A stretch of 23,348 nt of DNA from Clostridia bacterium (GTDB lineage Bacteria > UBA6262 > WVXT01 > JAUXBS01), in contig JAUXDE010000012.1 in the NCBI GenBank assembly GCA_030618495.1, positions 1 to 23,348 of the forward strand. The letters are read 5' to 3'. The translations under genes and the position numbers were made by a program. How positions within the stretch are numbered: position 1 is the first letter of the stretch; each line of letters begins with the position of its first letter. Below, piece after piece: positions 1,384 to 23,348 of the stretch. The notes under the pieces are model-generated. The model was not told the origin of the DNA and made no database searches. It was given only the letters and a program-made list of their open reading frames with translations.

Positions 1384-2592
1384 CTACACATCCCCGGCCA
1401 TCGATCCCATCTCAAACATCGGCAGGAACAACGCCACGACCATTCCCCCGACGACAACACCGAGCACTACTATGATTAACGGTTCAATCATTGCCGTCAG
1501 CCCTTCCACTGCCTGGTCAACTTCGGTATCATAGAAATCCGCTATCTTTGAGAGCATCGTGTCAAGGTTGCCTGTTTCCTCTCCCACGGATATCATCTGG
1601 ACGACCATTGGCGGGAAAACGCCGCTTTTTTTCAGGGGTTCCGCAATCCTTTCCCCTTCCCTGATACTCTCCTTGGCTTCATTGATAGCTTTTTCAACCA
1701 CCTTGTTCCCCGCGGTTTTCGCAACGGTTTCAAGGGCCTGCAGTATGGGCACGCCACTTTTTATCAGCGTGCCGAAAGTCCTGGTGAACTTTGCGATAGA
1801 AACTTTCTTAAGTATCATCCCTAATATGGGCAACTTCAGCATAATAGCATCTATCTGAAGCCCTCCGCGTTCCGTCTTTTTGTATGCCTTGAACGCAAAC
1901 ATCCCGCCGATACCTCCAACTATCATAAACGGTATCGCCTTTATGGCATTCTCACTCGCAGCCACCAGTATCCTGGTGGGCATAGGCAGTTCCTTCCCGA
2001 AACCAGAGAACATTATGGAGAACTTCGGAACCACAGCCGTAAGAACGAACCCCACGATACCGAACATAGCGAAGAAAATAACAACAGGATATGACATGGC
2101 TGATTTTATCTGTCCCTGCAGTTTTGCCGCCGCCTCCATGTAGTCTGAGAGCCTTTCAAGAATAACGTCAAGTATACCGCCGACCTCGCCTGCCCTTACC
2201 ATGCTGACGTAAAGGGTCGTGAACACCTTGGGGTGGCGATCCATTGCATCGGCAATGGTTATCCCCGATTCAATGTCCTCCCTTATCTTGCCGACTACCT
2301 GCTTGAACGGGGGGCTCTCAATCTGCTCATGCAGGATTGACAGGGACTGGACGATGGGGACACCCGAATTGACCAGGGTTGAAAGCTGCCTGCTGAATAT
2401 CACCAAATCCTTCCTCTTAACCTTTGGCTTCAATAACTTCATTTTTCCGCCAGCGCCCTTTTGTTCGGATATATCAAGTATAATAAATTTTTGTTCCCTC
2501 AACTTGCCTACGACCGACTGCTGGTCATTCGCTTCCATAACCCCTTCAAGGACGTTCCCCTGTATGCTCCTTACTTTATAACTGAATTTCAT
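1384..2592 (-). CDS. pilC: Type IV pilus inner-membrane platform protein PilC (GspF family)
   Basis: At 402 residues it has the usual PilC/GspF length. After an N-terminal cytoplasmic region (about 1-60) come two T2SSF repeats, each opening with a similar signature: FSRQLSTLVNSGVPIVQSL (66-84) and FTRTFGTLIKSGVPILQAL (269-287). The acidic GEVGG and GEETGN turns follow. Membrane segments are near 168-190, 219-236 and the C-terminal 372-392 (IIVVLGVVVGGMVVALFLP). It forms the integral-membrane base on which the PilB and PilT motors act. The Shine-Dalgarno GGAGG precedes the ATG, 50 bp after the pilT stop, so it is co-transcribed with pilT. No terminator is visible before pilA. Nothing abnormal is seen. 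Confidence 0.95.
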   Translation of the reverse strand: MKFSYKVRSIQGNVLEGVMEANDQQSVVGKLREQKFIILDISEQKGAGGKMKLLKPKVKRKDLVIFSRQLSTLVNSGVPIVQSLSILHEQIESPPFKQVVGKIREDIESGITIADAMDRHPKVFTTLYVSMVRAGEVGGILDVILERLSDYMEAAAKLQGQIKSAMSYPVVIFFAMFGIVGFVLTAVVPKFSIMFSGFGKELPMPTRILVAASENAIKAIPFMIVGGIGGMFAFKAYKKTERGGLQIDAIMLKLPILGMILKKVSIAKFTRTFGTLIKSGVPILQALETVAKTAGNKVVEKAINEAKESIREGERIAEPLKKSGVFPPMVVQMISVGEETGNLDTMLSKIADFYDTEVDQAVEGLTAMIEPLIIVVLGVVVGGMVVALFLPMFEMGSMAGDV

Positions 2593-2642
2593 TCAAGTCC
2601 TCCGTCAAATAACAAAATCTCTTAAAAAACAGGATTCTATTC

Positions 2643-3767
2643 CTACTTTCCATACCCGCCATAATTACCCGGTTTTGACGTTCCGGGACCTGCGCCTGAC
2701 TTGCCTCCCCCACCCTTGAAAAGCCTGTCCAGTTCCTCAGGGTCAGTACTCTGCGCTATTGCCTGCGCGTAAGTAATGAAGTTCTTGGAGGTCAATTCGT
2801 AAAGACTGGCATTCATCGTCTGCATTCCAAATCTCCCACCTGACTGCATTGCCGTTGGAATCTGTTCTGTTTTGTTATCACGAATCATGTTTCTTATACC
2901 GGGAGTCAGTTTGAGTACTTCTATAGCCATGCACCTGCCCTGCCCGCTGGCTTTGGCAAGAAGGCGCTGGGACAAAACACCCTCAAGGACAAAAGACAAC
3001 TGCGAACGAATCTGAGTCTGCTGGTGGGGCGGGAATACGTCTATTATCCTGTTTATCGATTGAATAGCGTCAATAGTATGCAGTGTGGCAAAAACCAGAT
3101 GTCCTGTCTCGGCTATCGTTAAGGTGGCTTCTATCGTTTCCAGGTCACGCATTTCTCCGATCAGTATTATATCGGGGTCCTGGCGAAGCACATGCTTCAG
3201 GGCAATGGTAAAACTTTCGCTGTCACTGCCTATCTCCCTCTGGTTGACCACGCACTTCTTATGATGATGCACGTATTCGATCGGGTCCTCAATTGTCATA
3301 ATATGACTTGTCCTTTGTTCATTAAGATAGTTAATCATCGAGGCAAGTGTCGTGGACTTACCGGAACCTGTCGGGCCCGTAACAAGGACAAGCCCGGAAT
3401 GCAGTTTCATAAAATCGTAAACAACCCCGGGCAAGCCGAGCTGTTCAAAAGTCATAAAATAATTGGGCACGGCTCTCAGGGCAGCGCCGACCACGCCCCT
3501 CTGCCTGAAAACATTCATTCTCACCCTGCCTATACCCTTTAGCCCGAAGGAAAGGTCAAGTTCATTATGGGCTTCAAAATGGCTTTTATGCTTGTCCGAA
3601 AGCAGGCTGTAAATCAGGTTCTGGCATTGTTCCCTTGTAAGTTTCTCGTATTCCGTTGGAATGAGTTCCCCGTCTATCCTTAATACCGGCGAACTGTTTA
3701 CCGTCAGGTGCAAGTCCGAAGCGTTTTTTTTCATCATAATTTCCAGCAATTCGCTGATCGTTACCAT
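2643..3767 (-). CDS. pilT: Type IV pilus retraction ATPase PilT
   Basis: This 374-residue secretion ATPase has Walker A GPTGSGKST (131-139), the Asp box MTIEDPIEY (157-165), Walker B DIILIGEMRD (199-208) and the His box TGHLVFATLHT (221-231). It also has a variant of the PilT retraction signature, GIRNMIRD (290-297; AIRNLIRE in well-studied PilT). It lacks the long MshEN N-domain and the Zn tetracysteine of PilB. It depolymerises the pilus for twitching motility or uptake. The C-terminus (about 351-374) is a Gly-, Pro- and Lys-rich tail not typical of PilT. AGGAG precedes the ATG. It follows pilB across a repeat-rich 132-bp gap and is upstream of pilC. Confidence 0.96.
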   Translation of the reverse strand: MVTISELLEIMMKKNASDLHLTVNSSPVLRIDGELIPTEYEKLTREQCQNLIYSLLSDKHKSHFEAHNELDLSFGLKGIGRVRMNVFRQRGVVGAALRAVPNYFMTFEQLGLPGVVYDFMKLHSGLVLVTGPTGSGKSTTLASMINYLNEQRTSHIMTIEDPIEYVHHHKKCVVNQREIGSDSESFTIALKHVLRQDPDIILIGEMRDLETIEATLTIAETGHLVFATLHTIDAIQSINRIIDVFPPHQQTQIRSQLSFVLEGVLSQRLLAKASGQGRCMAIEVLKLTPGIRNMIRDNKTEQIPTAMQSGGRFGMQTMNASLYELTSKNFITYAQAIAQSTDPEELDRLFKGGGGKSGAGPGTSKPGNYGGYGK

Positions 3768-3797
3768 GTTATTCTCCTCTCATACATTATCGGTTCT

Positions 3798-3900
3798 AAA
3801 TTATGGGGACACGTACCTAATTAGAATTTGGGGACACGTACCTAATTATTGGGACACAATTATTAAATAATTAGGTACGTGTCCCCAAATTCCCCATAAT
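3798..3900. repeat. Nested direct/inverted repeat between pilB and pilT
   Basis: A 20-bp unit of the form TGGGGACACGTACCTAATTA occurs twice in direct orientation (3804-3823 and 3829-3848, 25-bp period) and once inverted (within 3868-3891). The second copy and the inverted copy form a perfect 27-bp stem (3824-3850 with 3866-3892) around a 15-nt loop that itself holds a degenerate GGGACAC. An outer 10-bp arm pair (3800-3809 with 3891-3900) reaches the pilB stop codon, and the first direct copy could pair with the inverted copy instead. Neither side has a U-tract, so it is not a standard terminator. It resembles a REP-like intergenic palindrome, but no transposase is nearby. Confidence 0.9.
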
Positions 3901-5648
3901 TATTCCTCATCTTCGACCGTCAATCGCAGGACTTCCTCAACAGTGGTCGCCCCGACAAGCATTTTCTTTACCGCGGCGTCACGCAGAGTTATCATTCCTG
4001 TTTTCTTCGCGGCTTTTCTTATCTCAAGAGTTGGTTTACTCTGCAGGATGAGTTTCCTTATGGTATCGTTCATCTCCATCACTTCATAGCAGGCAAGCCT
4101 TCCCTTGTAACCCGTATTACTGCATTTATCACAACCCTTTCCCCTGTAAAGGTTAACCTTTTTCTTCCCATCAAACATTTCCTTACCGACACCGATGCTC
4201 TCAAGGTACTCCGATGAAATTTCATAGGGTTCCTTGCAATCCTTGCATATAACCCTTGCAAGACGCTGCGCCACGACCATGATAACCGTTGAAGTTATCA
4301 GGAACGGTTCAACGCCCATATTCAGCATGCGCGTCACCGAACCCGGGGCGTCATTTGTGTGAAGCGTTGACAGAACGAGGTGTCCCGTAAGCGCCGCATT
4401 CACGGCTATCTCAGCTGTCTCCGTGTCCCTTATCTCACCGACCATTATGATATCCGGGTCCTGCCTGAGGAATGAGCGCAGTCCGGCTGAAAACGTAAAA
4501 CCGATGTCAGGCTTTACCTGCACCTGGTTGATACCCGCGAGCACGTACTCAACAGGGTCTTCAATGGTGTTGATGTTCTTGTCGGGAAAGTTCAGCGTTG
4601 AAAGAGCCGAATAGAGAGTGGTTGACTTCCCGGAGCCGGTGGGGCCCGTAACGAGTATAATTCCATAGGGCGCTTCAATGCACTTGTTGAATATGGCAAG
4701 CGTTTCGGGCTCAAATCCAAGTTTGTTCAGGTCCAGGCACAGGTTGGATGAGTCAAGTATGCGCATGACTATCTTTTCACCGAAAGCTGTCGGGCAAATG
4801 GACACACGGAGATCGATTTCCCTGTCCATTATCTTTATTTTTATGCGGCCGTCCTGCGGTACGCGCCTCTCGGCGATGTTAAGGCTCGACATAATCTTGA
4901 ACCGGGAAATTATGGCATTCTGAAGTTTTTTGGGGGGAGCGTTTACCTCATGAAGCACGCCGTCTATACGGTAACGCACGCGCAGTTTCTTCTCGTAGGG
5001 TTCTACATGAATATCGCTTGCCTTTGCCCTTATCGCGCCCGAGAGGAGCAGGTTGCAGATTCTTATAATCGGAGCTTCCTCTCCCGCCGCCGCAAGCGCG
5101 CTCAGGTCATCCGATTCCTCGTCCTCTTTCACCACTTCCAAATTTGCATCCTCTTCAGAAGTACTCATCTCCTTTACGATATCGTCCATGGAACCCTTGA
5201 CGCTGTAGTACTTCTCAATGGCATTCTTGATTTCCGCCTCAGAGGCAATGACAGGGTTGATTTCACAACCCGTCATTAAGCGCAGGTCATCCGTCGCAAA
5301 AACGTTCAGGGGATCGTTCATTGCAATAGTGAGAATCTTCCCTTCCTTGCTTATGGGAATAAGAGTCTGGTGCCTTACAACGTTTTCCGGAACGCTTCTT
5401 ATAACATCAGGGGAAATCTCCCCGTATTCCGACAGGCTTATGTAAGGTACCCCGCACTGCTTGCCAAGGAACGCAAGAAGAACGTCCTCAGTAATATATC
5501 CAAGACTTATCAGCGACTCCCCTAATTTTATACCCTTGGCTTTCTGGTCCTGCAGGGCATTTCCAAGCTGCTCTTTGCTGATTATTCCAACCTCTGTGAG
5601 AAGGTCGCCAAGCTTTTTTTTGGTTGCCGTATCCTTTTGTTTTGCCAT
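3900..5648 (-). CDS. pilB: Type IV pilus extension ATPase PilB (GspE family)
   Basis: The protein is 582 residues from the chosen ATG. An MshEN/GspE-N domain (about 12-145) may bind nucleotide or c-di-GMP. The ATPase core has Walker A GPTGSGKST (335-343), Asp box IEDPVEY, Walker B DIIMVGEIRD (399-408) and His box TGHLVLSTLHT. A Zn-binding tetracysteine is split as CKDC (468-471) and CDKC (506-509). It powers pilus polymerisation through PilC. The ATG at 5648 has AAAGAGAG upstream. A TTG seven codons earlier (5669) is in frame but has no Shine-Dalgarno, so I prefer the ATG. The start lies 28 bp after the pta stop, indicating one transcript. An acidic linker (about 160-185) separates the N-domain from the motor. 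Confidence 0.95.
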   Translation of the reverse strand: MAKQKDTATKKKLGDLLTEVGIISKEQLGNALQDQKAKGIKLGESLISLGYITEDVLLAFLGKQCGVPYISLSEYGEISPDVIRSVPENVVRHQTLIPISKEGKILTIAMNDPLNVFATDDLRLMTGCEINPVIASEAEIKNAIEKYYSVKGSMDDIVKEMSTSEEDANLEVVKEDEESDDLSALAAAGEEAPIIRICNLLLSGAIRAKASDIHVEPYEKKLRVRYRIDGVLHEVNAPPKKLQNAIISRFKIMSSLNIAERRVPQDGRIKIKIMDREIDLRVSICPTAFGEKIVMRILDSSNLCLDLNKLGFEPETLAIFNKCIEAPYGIILVTGPTGSGKSTTLYSALSTLNFPDKNINTIEDPVEYVLAGINQVQVKPDIGFTFSAGLRSFLRQDPDIIMVGEIRDTETAEIAVNAALTGHLVLSTLHTNDAPGSVTRMLNMGVEPFLITSTVIMVVAQRLARVICKDCKEPYEISSEYLESIGVGKEMFDGKKKVNLYRGKGCDKCSNTGYKGRLACYEVMEMNDTIRKLILQSKPTLEIRKAAKKTGMITLRDAAVKKMLVGATTVEEVLRLTVEDEE

Positions 5649-6870: not shown

Positions 6871-8073
6871 TTAGAACCTGAACGAGAGAGACATTCTGTG
6901 CGCCGCGCCCAGGCCATCCTGAGCCCCTATATTAAACAACCCGCTGAACGCATAGTTCACTTCAACCATGTCTGCAAACTTCAGGCCTATACCCGCCGAA
7001 CCGGTAAAAACATTCAAGTCCGCAGTTGGACCCGCCAACTGCTTGACACCGGCGCGAATTGCAAGCATATTGACAATCCACAACTCCATACCTGCCGAGA
7101 AATCCATTAATTGCTGATCCTGTAAAATACCACCGACCATTACATCCGCCGCAACCGTTATGGCTGATATTCCCGGCATGCCTGAGAGAGTATACGATAC
7201 ACCGGCTCCGACACCCATGGGAATTGTTGCAGGGGCAGGCGCTGCTACCGAAGGATACATCAGGTTTTGCGCCGACCCATCATAAACGGCAGGATCCCTA
7301 TAGTATGGCAAACCGTTCGCATCCAATTTGTCCTCATTCACTGACCAGGCCATTTGTGACATGTCCATTAAATTCCTGGCAACAATACCTACGCTCAAAC
7401 CACTCGCCGCTTCGCCCATCAGGGGATTGCCGGGATTCATCCTGTACATCAATCCCACATCTACTCCGAAACCACTGGCTTCATACTCAAATACACTCTG
7501 GCTGAGCAGTTTTACGTTGGCGCCGACACAGAGACCGGGACCGAAGTTCTGTGAGAAACTTACTATGATAGCCTGCTCCATGTCACTGCCTTCTTTCATG
7601 TTGTCCGGATTATAGAAGACCCTCTCGCCTGTTTCCCATATCCCGTCTCCATCATCATCCCATTCCAACCCCCTGGTGTCATATATTCCATCTATTCCAA
7701 GCTGAACCAGACTTGCGCCGATTCTCATGGCGCCAAGCGTCCACACTAACCCGAAGTAATTATAGTTAGCGCCTAACTGCGCCACATTGATACCGGCTAA
7801 ATTACCGGCATCATCAGTACCTACACTTTCCAGGGCTGCCGGACAGTACATAGCTATTATTTCTTTCTTGTGCATGCCGCCCATTCCTGCCGGGTTCCAG
7901 TAAGCCGCGCTTCCATCGTTTGCTATGCCAATGAATGTTCCTCCCATTCCCAGAGCTCTCGCTCCTACTCCTATATTAAGGAACTCTCCGGCATATTTAC
8001 CATCCGCAAAAGCGCTAGTGGCAAACACTGCAAAAACTAACACAACTCCAATCAAAATAAGTGTTCTTTTCAT
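6871..8073 (-). CDS. PorV/PorQ-family outer-membrane beta-barrel protein
   Basis: The protein is 400 residues from the ATG at 8073. A cleavable signal peptide (1-23, ending TSAFA before DGKYAGEF) leads into the family's hallmark N-terminus GVGARALGMGGTF, then NDGSAAYWNPAGM. Alternating hydrophobic strands follow, and the last residue is Phe (SLSFRF), a BamA-type outer-membrane signal. Residues 139-150 (DDDGDGIWETGE) match a 12-residue EF-hand calcium loop. The frame is open to 8148, but that would put the start inside the promoter, while GGGAGGG precedes the ATG at 8073. The family includes PorV of type IX secretion and many barrels of unknown role; no type IX genes are here, so the function is unassigned. 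It is monocistronic with two promoters and a terminator. Confidence 0.88.
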   Translation of the reverse strand: MKRTLILIGVVLVFAVFATSAFADGKYAGEFLNIGVGARALGMGGTFIGIANDGSAAYWNPAGMGGMHKKEIIAMYCPAALESVGTDDAGNLAGINVAQLGANYNYFGLVWTLGAMRIGASLVQLGIDGIYDTRGLEWDDDGDGIWETGERVFYNPDNMKEGSDMEQAIIVSFSQNFGPGLCVGANVKLLSQSVFEYEASGFGVDVGLMYRMNPGNPLMGEAASGLSVGIVARNLMDMSQMAWSVNEDKLDANGLPYYRDPAVYDGSAQNLMYPSVAAPAPATIPMGVGAGVSYTLSGMPGISAITVAADVMVGGILQDQQLMDFSAGMELWIVNMLAIRAGVKQLAGPTADLNVFTGSAGIGLKFADMVEVNYAFSGLFNIGAQDGLGAAHRMSLSFRF

Positions 8074-8119
8074 CTTCTTACCCTCCCTCTGAAATGTCCA
8101 ACTAAATTTCCTTACTACA

Positions 8120-8148
8120 AGTATATAACACGAACCAACATTTGTCAA
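8120..8148 (-). promoter_or_regulatory. Proximal sigma70-type promoter of the PorV-family gene
   Basis: TTGACA (8148-8143), a 17-bp spacer and TATACT (8125-8120) lie about 40 bp before the ATG at 8073. This position also rules out translation starting further upstream at 8148. Confidence 0.75.
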
Positions 8149-17990: not shown

Positions 17991-18686
17991 ATGATGAATT
18001 ATTTAAGAAAAAGAATGAAAGTATTTTTGTGGATAATAGTCATTACCTTCGTCGGTGGGATATTTCTTATGCAGTACACCGCAAGAAGGTTCAGCAACGA
18101 GGCTGCCGAGGTCAACGGTGTAAAAATACCGTATGAAACTTACAAGCAGCAGTTACAGCAAAGACTGCAAAGCAGTAGGAGCGAAAACCCGGAGGAGGAA
18201 CTCAAGGACGAAGATGTAAAAAGAATCAAGCAGGACGTCATTAGCTACCTTATACTTGAAGAACTCCTGTGGCAGGAAGCCGGTAAATACAACTTGAAAA
18301 TAAGCGACAAGGAACTTGCCGCCACCATACGCTCTTTCCCCCAGTTCCAGAAGGAAGGCCAGTTCTATAATGAAATTTACATGCAGACTCTGAAGTATGC
18401 CTTCCGCACCACCCCGGACAAGTACGAAAAGCGGATAAGAAAAATCCTTATTACAGAAAAAATGAAAAGATTGGTATTCTCAGGTATAAAAATAACGAGC
18501 CGGGAAATAGAACATGAGCGGTTCAGGAGAAACACAGAAAAACCGGAAGAAGGGGAAGAAGACACCCTCCCCGGGACAGTTATGCAGTCAAAGATGATGC
18601 TTCTAAGAAACCGTTGGTTCAACAACATCTATAAGGATGCAAAGATAACAAACAACCTCCAGAGAATAGAAAAATTGGGTTTCTAA
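17991..18686 (+). CDS. Membrane-anchored SurA-N/PpiD-like chaperone without a PPIase domain
   Basis: The protein is 231 residues. A short basic N-terminus and one transmembrane helix (about 9-29) resemble the PpiD anchor. Then follows NEAAEVNGVKIPYETYKQQLQQRL, the start of a SurA_N domain, and a helical region with the usual DVISYLILEELLWQEAGKYNLKISDKELAATI. The C-terminal third is charged and helical. No parvulin-type isomerase domain is present, whereas SurA (about 430) and PpiD (about 620) have one or two. It probably faces the periplasm and holds unfolded outer-membrane proteins; this is inferred. AGGAG precedes the ATG, and a second ATG follows at once (17994). Its TAA shares bases with the TAG of the convergent radical SAM gene. 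Confidence 0.82.
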   Translation: MMNYLRKRMKVFLWIIVITFVGGIFLMQYTARRFSNEAAEVNGVKIPYETYKQQLQQRLQSSRSENPEEELKDEDVKRIKQDVISYLILEELLWQEAGKYNLKISDKELAATIRSFPQFQKEGQFYNEIYMQTLKYAFRTTPDKYEKRIRKILITEKMKRLVFSGIKITSREIEHERFRRNTEKPEEGEEDTLPGTVMQSKMMLLRNRWFNNIYKDAKITNNLQRIEKLGF

Positions 18687-19696
18687 GAACACCCACCCAT
18701 TCCTGCAATATTCACGTCCTCACCGCACCCGGCGCACCTGCCTTCCTTAACCTTTATCACTTCCGTAATATAACCCCTTCTGCGTATAAGAATTTCCCTG
18801 CAGTTCGGGCAGTAGGTGTTGCTCTCGGGTTCCTCCATAACATTGCCCAGGTAAACGTGCCTCAGTTTCTTGACAGCAATATCCCTTGCCATTTCAAGAG
18901 TTGAAAAAGGAGTGGCTTTCACGGTCATTTTGTAACAGGGGTAATACCGGGAAAAATGAACGGGTATGAGTTCCGACAGGGAAGACACCCAGTTTATAAG
19001 TTCCGATATGTCTTCCTTCGTGTCGTTCAGCCCCGGAATAATCAAATTCGTCACTTCAACATGCACCTTCTTCTTGAACATAATCTCAACGGTCCTTAAT
19101 ACATCCCCCAGCCTTCCGCCGCAGTACTTCCTGTAGAATTCATCCTTGAATGATTTCACGTCAACATTGGCGGCATCAATGAAGGGCAAAAGGTTCACCA
19201 GCGGTTCCTCGTTCAGGAACCCGTTGGTAACCAGAATGTTCACCAGGCCTTTATCCTTTATTTTTATTGCCGTTTCGTTCAGGTGTTCGTAGTTGATTAA
19301 AGGTTCGTTGTAAGTATAGGCAACGCCTATTGAACCGCGCGCGCCTGCAAGTTCGGCTATATCATCGGAACCCAGTTCCCTCGCAGGAAGGTCACCCGGA
19401 GCGCGCTGGGAGATTTCATGGTTCTGGCAGAACCGGCAACTCAGGTTACAGCCGGCTGTCCCGAGTGACAGCACCTGGCTTCCCGGGTAAAAATGATACA
19501 GGGGTTTTTTTTCTATGGGGTCGATGTTAACGGAAGTGTACCTGCCGTAGGTCAGGGCGTACAGCTTGCCCCCGTCATTCTTCCTTGTTCCGCATGCGCC
19601 CGTCTTGCCTTCTTCAATAACACATTTATGGGGGCAGAGTGAACAGCGGACCTTGTTTCCTTCATTAAGCGGTGAATAGTATAGGGCTTGCTTCAC
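18683..19696 (-). CDS. amrS: AmmeMemoRadiSam-system-type radical SAM enzyme (AmrS/PflA-like)
   Basis: The 337-residue protein begins with a four-Cys region (C18, C21, C25, C35), then the radical SAM cluster motif CNLSCRFC (C83, C87, C90). Next come AYTYNEPLINYE, ILVTNGF and DVKSFKDEFYRKYCGG, then HFSRYYPCYKM. Two CxxC pairs at the C-terminus (C296/C299, C321/C324) form a probable Zn ribbon. This layout is that of the AmmeMemoRadiSam radical SAM enzyme, related to pyruvate formate-lyase activators; its substrate is not established. The usual partners Memo and AMMECR1 are absent here. It starts with GTG behind AAGGA, 24 bp after rnfB on the same strand, so it is probably the last gene of the rnf operon. 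Confidence 0.9.
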   Translation of the reverse strand: MKQALYYSPLNEGNKVRCSLCPHKCVIEEGKTGACGTRKNDGGKLYALTYGRYTSVNIDPIEKKPLYHFYPGSQVLSLGTAGCNLSCRFCQNHEISQRAPGDLPARELGSDDIAELAGARGSIGVAYTYNEPLINYEHLNETAIKIKDKGLVNILVTNGFLNEEPLVNLLPFIDAANVDVKSFKDEFYRKYCGGRLGDVLRTVEIMFKKKVHVEVTNLIIPGLNDTKEDISELINWVSSLSELIPVHFSRYYPCYKMTVKATPFSTLEMARDIAVKKLRHVYLGNVMEEPESNTYCPNCREILIRRRGYITEVIKVKEGRCAGCGEDVNIAGMGGCS

Positions 19697-19720: not shown

Positions 19721-20578
19721 CTACGAGTGATTCGTGGCCTGCGATTCTGCGTTTTTCTTTTTTTTACTTCTTTCTTCAGGCTCTTTGGAGGAGTGTTTCT
19801 CGGTATAAATTATTGTTTTTGAAGGGCACTTTTTCACACAGATACCACAGCCATTACACCTACTGTAATCAATTACCGCAAGATTTTCTTCTATGGTTAT
19901 TGCCTTTTCGGGACAGAACTTGACACATATGCGACAGGCGAAACATCCGGCCTTGCATATCTTCTTGACGGAAGGCCCCTTGTCATGCGAACCGCATTTT
20001 ACGTATACCTCCGCTTTTTCAGGAATAAGTTTTATTACATTAACAGGACACGCTTCTATGCACTTACCGCAAGCCGTGCATTTTTGAGGTATGATTTCAG
20101 GGATTTTTCCAGGCTCCCACCTTATGGCATCAAAGTTACAGGCCTTAACGCAGTCACCCAGTCCAAGACAAGCATACCTGCAGGACTTGAACCCGCCTGC
20201 GACAGAACTTGCAGCATAACATTCATTTATCCCGACATAGTTAAACTTCTGTTCACAATCCCTTCCCCCGCACAGTACCCTCGCCACCCGCCTTTCCCTC
20301 AGTGATGCTTCCCTGCCCAGTATTTCACCTATTTTCTCAACCGTTTCCGTTCCACCCGCGGTACACAGCCCCGGGTCAGCGCCCTCTTTTATCATTGCCT
20401 CCGCATAACCGCTGCATCCGGGAAAACCACAGGCGCCGCAGTTTGCCCCGGGCAGTATTCTCAACAGGTGTTCCTGCCTTGGATCAACAGGCACGGCAAA
20501 TTTCTTCGCCGCAACGGCAAGGATGAAACCGAAAACAAGTCCTATCCCGCCCAATAGTATAACAGTGTTTAAAATCAT
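19721..20578 (-). CDS. rnfB: Rnf complex Fe-S subunit RnfB
   Basis: The 285-residue protein has an N-terminal membrane helix (about 5-25), then the RnfB cluster motif GANCGACGFPGC with a later Cys (C47, C50, C55, C72). At least three clear CxxCxxCxxxCP-type ferredoxin motifs follow (C167-C177, C212-C222, C241-C251). A further cysteine-rich stretch lies at C133-C147. RnfB accepts electrons from ferredoxin and passes them to the membrane subunits. The total number of Fe-S motifs is higher than in proteobacterial RnfB (about 190 residues) and resembles the extended RnfB of anaerobes such as acetogens. A Lys- and Glu-rich tail (261-285) ends the protein. It starts 16 bp after the rnfA stop with only a weak Shine-Dalgarno. 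Confidence 0.95.
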   Translation of the reverse strand: MILNTVILLGGIGLVFGFILAVAAKKFAVPVDPRQEHLLRILPGANCGACGFPGCSGYAEAMIKEGADPGLCTAGGTETVEKIGEILGREASLRERRVARVLCGGRDCEQKFNYVGINECYAASSVAGGFKSCRYACLGLGDCVKACNFDAIRWEPGKIPEIIPQKCTACGKCIEACPVNVIKLIPEKAEVYVKCGSHDKGPSVKKICKAGCFACRICVKFCPEKAITIEENLAVIDYSRCNGCGICVKKCPSKTIIYTEKHSSKEPEERSKKKKNAESQATNHS

Positions 20579-20594
20579 ATTTTAAATAAACTTT

Positions 20595-21182
20595 CTATAA
20601 CCCGAACAAACCTTTAAATCCCAGGAATGCCAGAGACATCAACGCTGCCGTAAAGAATGCAATCGGATAACCTGCCAGCGCCTTCGGTACCGGCGCGGTA
20701 TCCAGCCTTTCCCTGATTCCCGCAAAAAGAATTATCACTACGATAAATCCCAGGGATACCCCTATGGCATAAACCAGCGCCTGTATAAAACTGAAACTAT
20801 AATCCACATGCAGGAAAGAAGCTGCAAGTATCGCGCAGTTCGTGGTGATAAGCGGCAGATAAATCCCGAGGGATTTATAAAGATTGGGAATATATTTTTT
20901 CATAAACAGTTCTTCAAGCTGTACAAGCGAAGCTATGACAAGAATAAAAGTTACTATCTTCAGAAACTCCAGCCCCATGGGTACCAGGAGATAATTATAT
21001 ATAACCCATGTCACCGCCGATGATACGGTCATTACAAATATAACGGCCATACCCATTCCAATGGCGGACTCCATCCTGCCCGAAACCCCGAAGAACGGGC
21101 AAAGACCGATAAACCTGATGAGCACTATGTTGTTAACTATCATTGCTGAAAGAAAAATTCCAAACAGGCTTATTTCGTTCAT
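20595..21182 (-). CDS. rnfA: Rnf complex membrane subunit RnfA
   Basis: This 195-residue protein has six hydrophobic segments and the RnfA/NqrE signatures: FLSAMIVNNIVLIRFIGLCPF near the start, then KSLGIYLPLITTNCAILA with its conserved Thr-Asn-Cys. In characterised Rnf and Nqr structures, the cysteines of the A/E (D/E) pair bind a membrane-buried 2Fe-2S centre; C28 and C116 are the candidates here. The C-terminal half has GIRERLDTAPVPKALAGYPIAF. It pairs with RnfE in the ion-translocating core. Its ATG lies one base after the rnfE stop, so translation is almost certainly coupled. Length is typical. Confidence 0.96.
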   Translation of the reverse strand: MNEISLFGIFLSAMIVNNIVLIRFIGLCPFFGVSGRMESAIGMGMAVIFVMTVSSAVTWVIYNYLLVPMGLEFLKIVTFILVIASLVQLEELFMKKYIPNLYKSLGIYLPLITTNCAILAASFLHVDYSFSFIQALVYAIGVSLGFIVVIILFAGIRERLDTAPVPKALAGYPIAFFTAALMSLAFLGFKGLFGL

Positions 21183-21183
21183 T

Positions 21184-21804
21184 TCATTCCTTTTCTTCCT
21201 TCTTAATCATGTCTTTTTCCGACTGCCTGTTCCTTGTCCAGTTTAGAATGCCCATTAAAGAACCTATGGTAATAAAAGCCCCCGGAGGCAGTATCATAAT
21301 CATAGCAGGATGCGCTATGAAACGGGCTGAACCAAAAATCGTACCGTTTCCCGACACTTCCCTGATAATCCCTATAAGAACGATTACCAGGGTAAATCCC
21401 ACACCCATTCCTATCCCGTCAAGAAGAGCGTCAAATACCCTGTTCCTGTACGCGAATGCCTCCCCGCGGCCCAGTATAATACAGTTTACCACTATCAGCG
21501 GAACGAATATCCCCAATGATTTATGCAGGGGAGGTAGATATGAGGCCATCATAAGATCGATGATGGTTACAAAAGTGGATATAACCACAATGAAAACCGG
21601 TATGCGTATCTGGTCGGGAATCACCCCGCGGATTAAGGAAATAACCACGTTTGAACAGATAAGGACAAAGGTTGCGGCAATCCCCATACCCAGGGCATTT
21701 ATAGCATTATTGGAAACGGCAAGTAAAGGACACAGCCCTATCATTAGAACCAGGACGGGATTTTCCCTGATTAAACCGTTGGTTAATGTTTTTAATCTGT
21801 TCAT
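21184..21804 (-). CDS. rnfE: Rnf complex membrane subunit RnfE
   Basis: The 206-residue protein is homologous to RnfA in inverted topology. Seen signatures are GLIRENPVLVLMIGLCPLLAVSNNAINALGMG near the start and HKSLGIFVPLIVVNCIILGRGEAFA, where the Val-Asn-Cys-Ile motif supplies the second cysteine of the shared 2Fe-2S site. GFTLVIVLIGIIREVSGNG and the conserved PPGAF follow. The charged C-terminus (NRQSEKDMIKKEEKE) is cytoplasmic. The ATG overlaps the rnfG stop by 4 bp (ATGA), and rnfA begins one base after this stop, so G, E and A are translationally coupled. Nothing unusual in length or motifs. Confidence 0.96.
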   Translation of the reverse strand: MNRLKTLTNGLIRENPVLVLMIGLCPLLAVSNNAINALGMGIAATFVLICSNVVISLIRGVIPDQIRIPVFIVVISTFVTIIDLMMASYLPPLHKSLGIFVPLIVVNCIILGRGEAFAYRNRVFDALLDGIGMGVGFTLVIVLIGIIREVSGNGTIFGSARFIAHPAMIMILPPGAFITIGSLMGILNWTRNRQSEKDMIKKEEKE

Positions 21805-22637
21805 TTTCCCTTCCTTCCGGCTGACTCCAGGGCATTCTGAACCGCGTCAATCAAACCCTGGCTGGTAAGAGTTGCGCCGCTGACGGTATCAACTTCCGTT
21901 GTCTGTTCCCTGAGGATTTTGGCGGGTATTTCTGCCTTCACCTTTGCCCAGTACCTCTTTGCCTCCTGCTGTCTTATCACCTTTATGGCCTTAATCCCGC
22001 GGGATTCTATCACAACTTCAACCCTTACCGGACCGGCGGCCCCTTCCCCCCTCCCCCAGTACGAGCCGTCAGGCACACGGTTCAGAATATCCCTCTTGCC
22101 GGTGTAATTTACGTACTCGTTATAAAGGTTAAAACCCTTCTTCACTCCGCCGGTTACCGCGCGGGAGGATATCGTTGCTGCCGTAACCGCATCAATTTTT
22201 CCATCGGAACCGTCACTGGCCAAACACGCTTCTTTCTCTGTCAATCCTCTGAACTGGTCCGTAAACTCTGCTGCGGCTATCTTGTTCCCCAGCCCCGGCG
22301 TCTCCGTCTGGTTTATAATATAAAGGCCTTCTATTTTCCCTTTCATGCTCATCCCGATGAGCATTTTAATCTCTCCGCTGTAACCTTTAACCGATACCGG
22401 CAGGATAAGCCCCGCTTTCCTGCCCTCATCATCATATCCTATATAACAGGCCTCTTTCCGGATTTTTATTTCCTCAAATCCCGAAGAGCGCGGCAAAACG
22501 TCCCTGCGCAGCCTTTCCAGTTCATTTTTCATGTGGGCGTCAATCCTGGGCTTTGTATTTTTATAGGTTACTGCCAGCAGGACCGCAGCGACAGAAGTTA
22601 CAATTGTTAAAACTACAATTTTTTTAATGATTTCCAT
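21801..22637 (-). CDS. rnfG: Rnf complex flavoprotein RnfG with two FMN-binding domains
   Basis: From the ATG at 22637 the product is 278 residues, against about 190-210 for ordinary RnfG. A transmembrane helix (about 7-24) leads to a periplasmic FMN_bind domain with GYSGEIKMLIG, TETPGLG and the flavinylation motif DAVTAAT (149-155). A second FMN_bind-like domain is fused behind it (about 186-275), with GSYWGRGEGAAGPV, IESRGIKAIKV and a perfect Dxx(S/T)GAT motif, DTVSGATLTS (250-259). ApbE would attach FMN to T155 and T256. The frame is open to 22685, but the ATG at 22637 matches normal RnfG N-termini. It overlaps the end of rnfD by 14 bp, with GGGAG upstream inside rnfD. RnfG passes electrons between RnfD and the rest of the complex. 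Confidence 0.93.
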   Translation of the reverse strand: MEIIKKIVVLTIVTSVAAVLLAVTYKNTKPRIDAHMKNELERLRRDVLPRSSGFEEIKIRKEACYIGYDDEGRKAGLILPVSVKGYSGEIKMLIGMSMKGKIEGLYIINQTETPGLGNKIAAAEFTDQFRGLTEKEACLASDGSDGKIDAVTAATISSRAVTGGVKKGFNLYNEYVNYTGKRDILNRVPDGSYWGRGEGAAGPVRVEVVIESRGIKAIKVIRQQEAKRYWAKVKAEIPAKILREQTTEVDTVSGATLTSQGLIDAVQNALESAGRKGK

Positions 22638-23348
22638 TATTAGTTTCAATGCTCCCGAACGGCTTGTGTTCCGTATATTTATCAATAACAGGAGTAAGGA
22701 TATTCATGATCAAAATGGAATAACATACCCCTTCCGGGAAACTTCCCTTGTATCTTATGAGCATCGTCAGCAGACCGCAGCCGATACCGAAGATTAACCT
22801 GCCCTTGTTCGTCATGGGTGTGGTAACCATGTCTGTTGCCATGAAAAACGCCCCCAGCACCAAACCGCCCGCCATTACATTAAAAAGCGGGTCCAGGTTA
22901 AATACCGCTGAAATTACGCAAACCGTACCTATGTACGATAACGGAATGTGGAGTGTTATACGCTTCCTGTAAAGCAGGTAAACTGCGCCAACCAGTAACG
23001 CCAGAACCGATGTTTCACCGAGACAGCCGGCCCTGCTTCCTAAAAACATATCCATGTACGACGGCAGTTCCACGGATAATCCCGTTTTCAATATTCCCAG
23101 CGGGGTTGCGCAGCTGATACCGTCAAACGGCGTTGACCAGTTCGTCATATGAATAGGCCAGGAAGCAAGGAGAACCGCGCGGGAAACCAGCGCCGGGTTA
23201 AACGGGTTGTAACCGAGACCGCCGAATACCTGCTTTCCCAGGATAATCGCAACAACGGCCCCTATCACCACCATCCATACGGGAGAGGACGGCGGGATGA
23301 CGAAAGCAAACAATATACCGGTGACAACCGCGCTGGGATCATTTACCG
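22624..23348 (-). CDS. rnfD: Rnf complex membrane flavoprotein RnfD (5' end outside window)
   Basis: The frame remains open to the right edge, and the extra codons give DPSAVVTGILFAFVIPPSSP, a typical internal RnfD segment, so the true start lies outside the window. The visible 240 or so codons cover the last two thirds. Included are the helix after VFGGLGYNPFNPALVSRA, the covalent-flavin motif DGISCATPLGI (Thr as predicted FMN phosphodiester site, Dxx(S/T)xAT) and FMATDMVTTPMTNKGRLIFG. Then come IRYKGSFPEGVCYSILIMN and a short hydrophilic tail. RnfD is a membrane subunit involved in electron transfer and ion translocation. It overlaps rnfG by 14 bp. The usual order predicts rnfC just beyond the edge. 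Confidence 0.95.
   Translation of the reverse strand, partial: VNDPSAVVTGILFAFVIPPSSPVWMVVIGAVVAIILGKQVFGGLGYNPFNPALVSRAVLLASWPIHMTNWSTPFDGISCATPLGILKTGLSVELPSYMDMFLGSRAGCLGETSVLALLVGAVYLLYRKRITLHIPLSYIGTVCVISAVFNLDPLFNVMAGGLVLGAFFMATDMVTTPMTNKGRLIFGIGCGLLTMLIRYKGSFPEGVCYSILIMNILTPVIDKYTEHKPFGSIETNNGNH

Follow-up and report, generated by a model that had tools for sequence, protein, structure and literature searches.

The rnfG gene in the window (the whole stretch of DNA that was analysed, 23,348 nucleotides) encodes a protein in which a standard RnfG is followed by a second FMN_bind domain carrying an intact ApbE flavinylation motif. On the DNA, PF04205 is matched twice above its curated cut-off (E 1.2e-17 and 3.8e-14), and the protein matches the same family over two stretches at 112.9 bits. 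Domain 1, which is the ordinary RnfG domain, spans residues 85-168 and domain 2 about residues 199-272; both assignments are confident, and a link of only about 10-20 residues lies between them. The earlier note had proposed a second domain of this kind, and its proposal holds: residues 186-278 searched alone against PF04205 give E 5.8e-15, far beyond chance, and the motifs DAVTAAT (149-155) and DTVSGAT (250-256) lie exactly where it had placed them. Two FMN_bind domains are combined in a single membrane-anchored protein, the anchor being assigned by homology to RnfG. From the two motifs we infer that ApbE would attach FMN to both Thr155 and Thr256. The gene, its parts and its neighbours are as follows.

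22624-23346, minus strand: rnfD, truncated at its 5' end by the contig boundary, with a flavinylation-type motif DGISCAT (TIGR01946, 292 bits)
21801-22637, minus strand: rnfG, 278 residues, two FMN_bind domains (PF04205, TIGR01947)
22110-22637, minus strand: RnfG part proper, residues 1-176 (TIGR01947 over residues 8-173, PF04205 over 85-168, Foldseek)
21804-22082, minus strand: domain 2, residues 186-278 (PF04205 searched alone; 8p2b by sequence and fold)
21184-21804, minus strand: rnfE (TIGR01948, 255.7 bits)
20595-21182, minus strand: rnfA (TIGR01943, 253 bits)
19721-20578, minus strand: rnfB, polyferredoxin subunit (NF005503, 263.6 bits; TIGR01944, 132.6 bits)

The identity of the protein as a membrane-anchored RnfG, as had been suggested, is confirmed by its N-terminal part, which scores 131.1 bits against TIGR01947 (curated cut-off 102). 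This part contains the N-terminal membrane anchor, the sequence ETPGLG at residues 112-117, which is conserved in NqrC and RnfG and binds the flavin non-covalently (PMC4348036), and motif 1 with its predicted FMN on Thr155. Domain 2 is of the small FMN_bind type, with FMN predicted on Thr256. The coordinates given previously for the gene are correct, and the strand, which had been left unstated, is minus: the coding part runs from 22637 down to 21804, with the stop codon at 21803-21801. The genes are arranged on the contig in the order rnfD-G-E-A-B, and rnfD, rnfE, rnfA and rnfB each score above the cut-off of the corresponding NCBI family model. A family-model search of the source genome found no match to rnfC over its cut-off, probably because the contig ends within rnfD; rnfC adjoins or precedes rnfD-G in a genome of the same genus (G001) and in an order-mate (G005).

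Conservation of the two-domain arrangement could be followed through the six genomes, from two families, that represent the phylum in our collection. Both domains and both motif threonines are present in each of the four order-mates whose rnfG is complete; these belong to the sister family and show 45-48% identity to the source protein for each domain. The cores T152-A-A-T155 and S253-G-A-T256 are invariant in the five complete proteins of the two families; in the sixth genome, G001, rnfG breaks off at residue 120, where the contig ends, and is uninformative on domain 2. Among the more divergent and better-resolved sister-family pairs, dN/dS ranges from 0.22 to 0.26 in domain 1 and from about 0.24 to 0.26 in domain 2, and the two domains are under similar constraint. 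A scan of the genome contig collection returned matches only in three order-mates, and a scan of viral contigs found nothing. These observations also bear on whether the gene could be an assembly chimera or a frameshift product, the circumstance in which the extension would have been confined to one assembly. The G+C content is indeed higher in domain 2 (0.56) than in domain 1 (0.47), as a chimera might show. However, the reading frame is open throughout, with its start overlapping rnfD and its end sharing ATGA with the start of rnfE, and the same fusion occurs at 45-48% identity in four further assemblies from another family. We therefore reject an artefactual origin, which we consider next to impossible.

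Domain 2 appears to have been acquired from outside RnfG. By phmmer it scores 51-55 bits against three small FMN_bind proteins that stand alone in other lineages, 36 bits against a fourth and 44 bits against CbFMN4 domain 1 (8p2b), whereas it scores 10-21 bits against RnfG domains and just 4.7 bits against its own domain 1. Because it resembles the small stand-alone proteins much more than it resembles domain 1, we conclude that it was most likely added by fusion; a small periplasmic flavin carrier was probably joined to RnfG in an ancestor shared by the whole of this small phylum. Tandem duplication within RnfG does have a precedent in the distant genome G188 (L077), where a two-FMN_bind RnfG sits in an rnfCDGEAB cluster and the second domain is of the RnfG type and looks like a duplicate. 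In the protein studied here, by contrast, the second domain is of the small stand-alone type, and the phmmer scores lead us to reject duplication as a highly improbable origin. A survey of 386 genomes drawn from across the domain gave matches to the protein in 178 of them; matches spanning both domains were seen in this phylum only. A second FMN_bind domain in RnfG was nevertheless seen in at least two other genomes, G188 and, more weakly, G130; this count is a lower bound, as FMN_bind matches were examined in 28 genomes picked mainly for long frames. The fusion described here and the tandem duplication in G188 together suggest repeated origins of a second flavin on RnfG.

The first motif carries alanine (Ala153) where glycine is usual, which the earlier note had read as a possible mark of a weaker site. 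That reading is not borne out. Alanine occupies this position in 11 of 22 RnfGs sampled from other lineages, so that Ala153 can be discarded as an anomaly, and RnfD of the same window has cysteine at the corresponding position (DGISCAT). A Gly-to-Ala change in a Klebsiella fumarate reductase cuts flavinylation to about half (review PMC12052999), and by analogy a lower flavin occupancy at motif 1 is possible. The site is probably used, and flavinylation there might perhaps be less complete with a foreign ApbE. The transferase itself, for which a search elsewhere in the genome had been recommended, was found: PF02424 matches at E 4.2e-78 on contig C136 (L003/L081), in a gene truncated where the contig stops. 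A C-terminal apbE piece on C55 (L004/L082) overlaps the C136 gene with about 91% identity over 108 bases, and the pieces may be strain variants of a single gene, or two distinct genes. ApbE is encoded in all six genomes of the phylum. The sister family has a complete apbE within the rnf cluster itself, in the order rnfC-D-G-moeA-like-E-A-B-cutA-like-rSAM-apbE. The moeA-like gene of that cluster (named by eye; L078, 4435-5628) splits the rnf run between rnfG and rnfE, and it is absent from the rnfG/rnfE junction in the window.

The nearest solved relative of domain 2 is CbFMN4 domain 1, in which FMN has been shown on the matching threonine: FMN is attached to Thr67, its ring is flanked by Tyr11 and Leu40, and N5 is bonded by Thr37 (PMC10339131). 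The sequence of domain 2 aligns with this structure (8p2b) along 83 residues (E 1.5e-10), and the alignment keeps the FMN threonine in register. Structure models of the whole protein and of domain 2, built from four sequences, reached pLDDT values of only 58-61 and are of low confidence. The whole-protein model matches the Rnf subunit G of C. tetanomorphum and A. woodii in Foldseek, and the top PDB match of the domain 2 model is again 8p2b (E 7.5e-4). The expectation that domain 2 would adopt an FMN_bind fold thus held as far as this fold match and the predicted strand-strand-strand-helix-helix order, which agrees with 8p2b-type domains, whereas placing the threonine in a flavin pocket was beyond models of this quality. 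Read from the gap-free alignment rather than from a model, Thr67, Tyr11, Leu40 and Thr37 of CbFMN4 domain 1 correspond to Thr256, Ala200, Tyr229 and Ala226. The Ala200 position is phenylalanine in the sister family, Tyr229-Trp230 is invariant, and in domain 2 the ETPGLG stretch is replaced by QEAKRYW.

According to the alignment, the non-covalent half of the pocket is altered (QEAKRYW for ETPGLG, Ala200 for tyrosine), as might be expected if domain 2 had no working flavin, or were poorly flavinylated, and served RnfG in a structural or docking role. Against this, the ApbE motif is intact and its core invariant, the seven-residue motif suffices for ApbE by itself (PMC12052999), and stand-alone relatives with similarly altered pockets also keep the motif. 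We regard this structural or docking reading as unlikely.

We propose that the source protein is an RnfG with a fused small FMN carrier, that both parts are flavinylated, and that domain 2 serves a periplasmic partner; taken as a whole, we hold this explanation to be about evenly balanced between right and wrong. Following the predicted transfer of FMN to Thr155 and Thr256 by ApbE, domain 1 would act as the usual shuttle between the iron-sulphur cluster of RnfA/E and the flavin of RnfD. Domain 2, tethered to domain 1 through the short linker on the outer face, might exchange electrons in either direction with domain 1 and also with a periplasmic partner. In this way, part of the electron flow could leave or enter the pump outside the membrane. 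In favour of this explanation, the electron-exit idea agrees with a published proposal for multi-flavinylated RnfG (PMC8238504). More tentatively, and as a reading less likely than not, we suggest that the arrangement could constitute a phylum-wide, non-haem electron port, through which electrons from ferredoxin would pass to or from a periplasmic partner while ions are still pumped.

Genes for such a partner were sought by family searches for FMN_bind proteins and paired-CXXCH cytochromes, which brought none to light. Omp85 proteins are present in all six genomes, which indicates that a periplasm is probably present. Besides RnfG, no other FMN_bind protein was detected in any genome of the phylum, so there is no separate flavin carrier of that type in these genomes. 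No paired-CXXCH cytochrome was matched in any of them, and a ccsA-like gene was found in the source genus only. Because the sister family retains domain 2 while having no detectable CcsA-type gene, a c-type cytochrome is unlikely to be the general partner; the distribution of ccsA and the empty paired-CXXCH search led us to discard a link between domain 2 and c-type cytochromes. It is also conceivable, if rather improbable, that domain 2 is flavinylated but works only within the pump, sharing electrons with domain 1 and RnfD as an additional relay or store and having no outside partner. The empty paired-CXXCH search, the lack of a second FMN_bind protein in the genome and the shortness of the link between the domains would all fit such an internal role. 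Yet a single FMN on RnfG is enough to complete this path in the Rnf complexes that have been studied well (PMC12174285), and domain 2 descends from a family of separate proteins.

The RnfG proteins of Clostridium tetanomorphum (7zc6) and Acetobacterium woodii (9eri) resemble the source protein in the anchor, domain 1, ETPGLG and the C-terminal threonine motif, but they carry a single FMN and stop after domain 1. Small FMN_bind domains similar to domain 2 are found in CbFMN4 (domain 1, 8p2b) and SaFMN3 (domain 2, 8p2a); these proteins are secreted and contain three to four similar copies, whereas the source protein has a single copy, fused to RnfG, with differences at several pocket residues. 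The closest precedent is the work of Meheust et al. (2021, eLife 10:e66878; PMC8238504), who describe RNF clusters with a multi-flavinylated RnfG containing more than one FMN_bind domain and propose a second path to alternative extracytosolic acceptors. The Christensenellales forms that they highlight have an added multi-haem portion, while the source RnfG has no haem motif and a small FMN_bind addition. The source lineage may already be included in the cluster list of that study. Both the multi-flavin RnfG and the idea of a second electron exit were thus published in 2021, and the source RnfG is a well-supported further case. To this we add that domain 2 most likely originated by fusion, that it is conserved over a small phylum, that the alanine motif is ordinary and that apbE is present in the sister-family cluster. 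We found no test of the 2021 idea of outside electron exchange by Rnf in the literature examined. Should domain 2 prove to be flavinylated and redox-active, the protein would offer a compact case in which to test such exchange outside the membrane and without cytochromes.

Several further features were observed in these genomes. On contig C22 of the source genome (G000; L080), a CcsA-like gene overlaps the gene for a PD40 beta-propeller protein (1893-3647 and 3575-4354, both on the minus strand); the latter protein has one CASCH haem motif and a flavinylation-like motif, DAVSGAS, which could be a chance occurrence. In the window, a reading frame of 425 residues at 6871-8148 (minus strand) has no Pfam match at E 1e-5. 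Just after rnfB, an AmmeMemoRadiSam-type radical SAM gene occupies positions 18683-19696 of the window (minus strand). Similar radical SAM genes, recognised by eye, lie beside or just after rnfB in the sister family (L078, 8263-9285) and in the distant G188 (L077, 378-1361), and this repeated neighbourhood may reflect a functional link between radical SAM and rnf genes.
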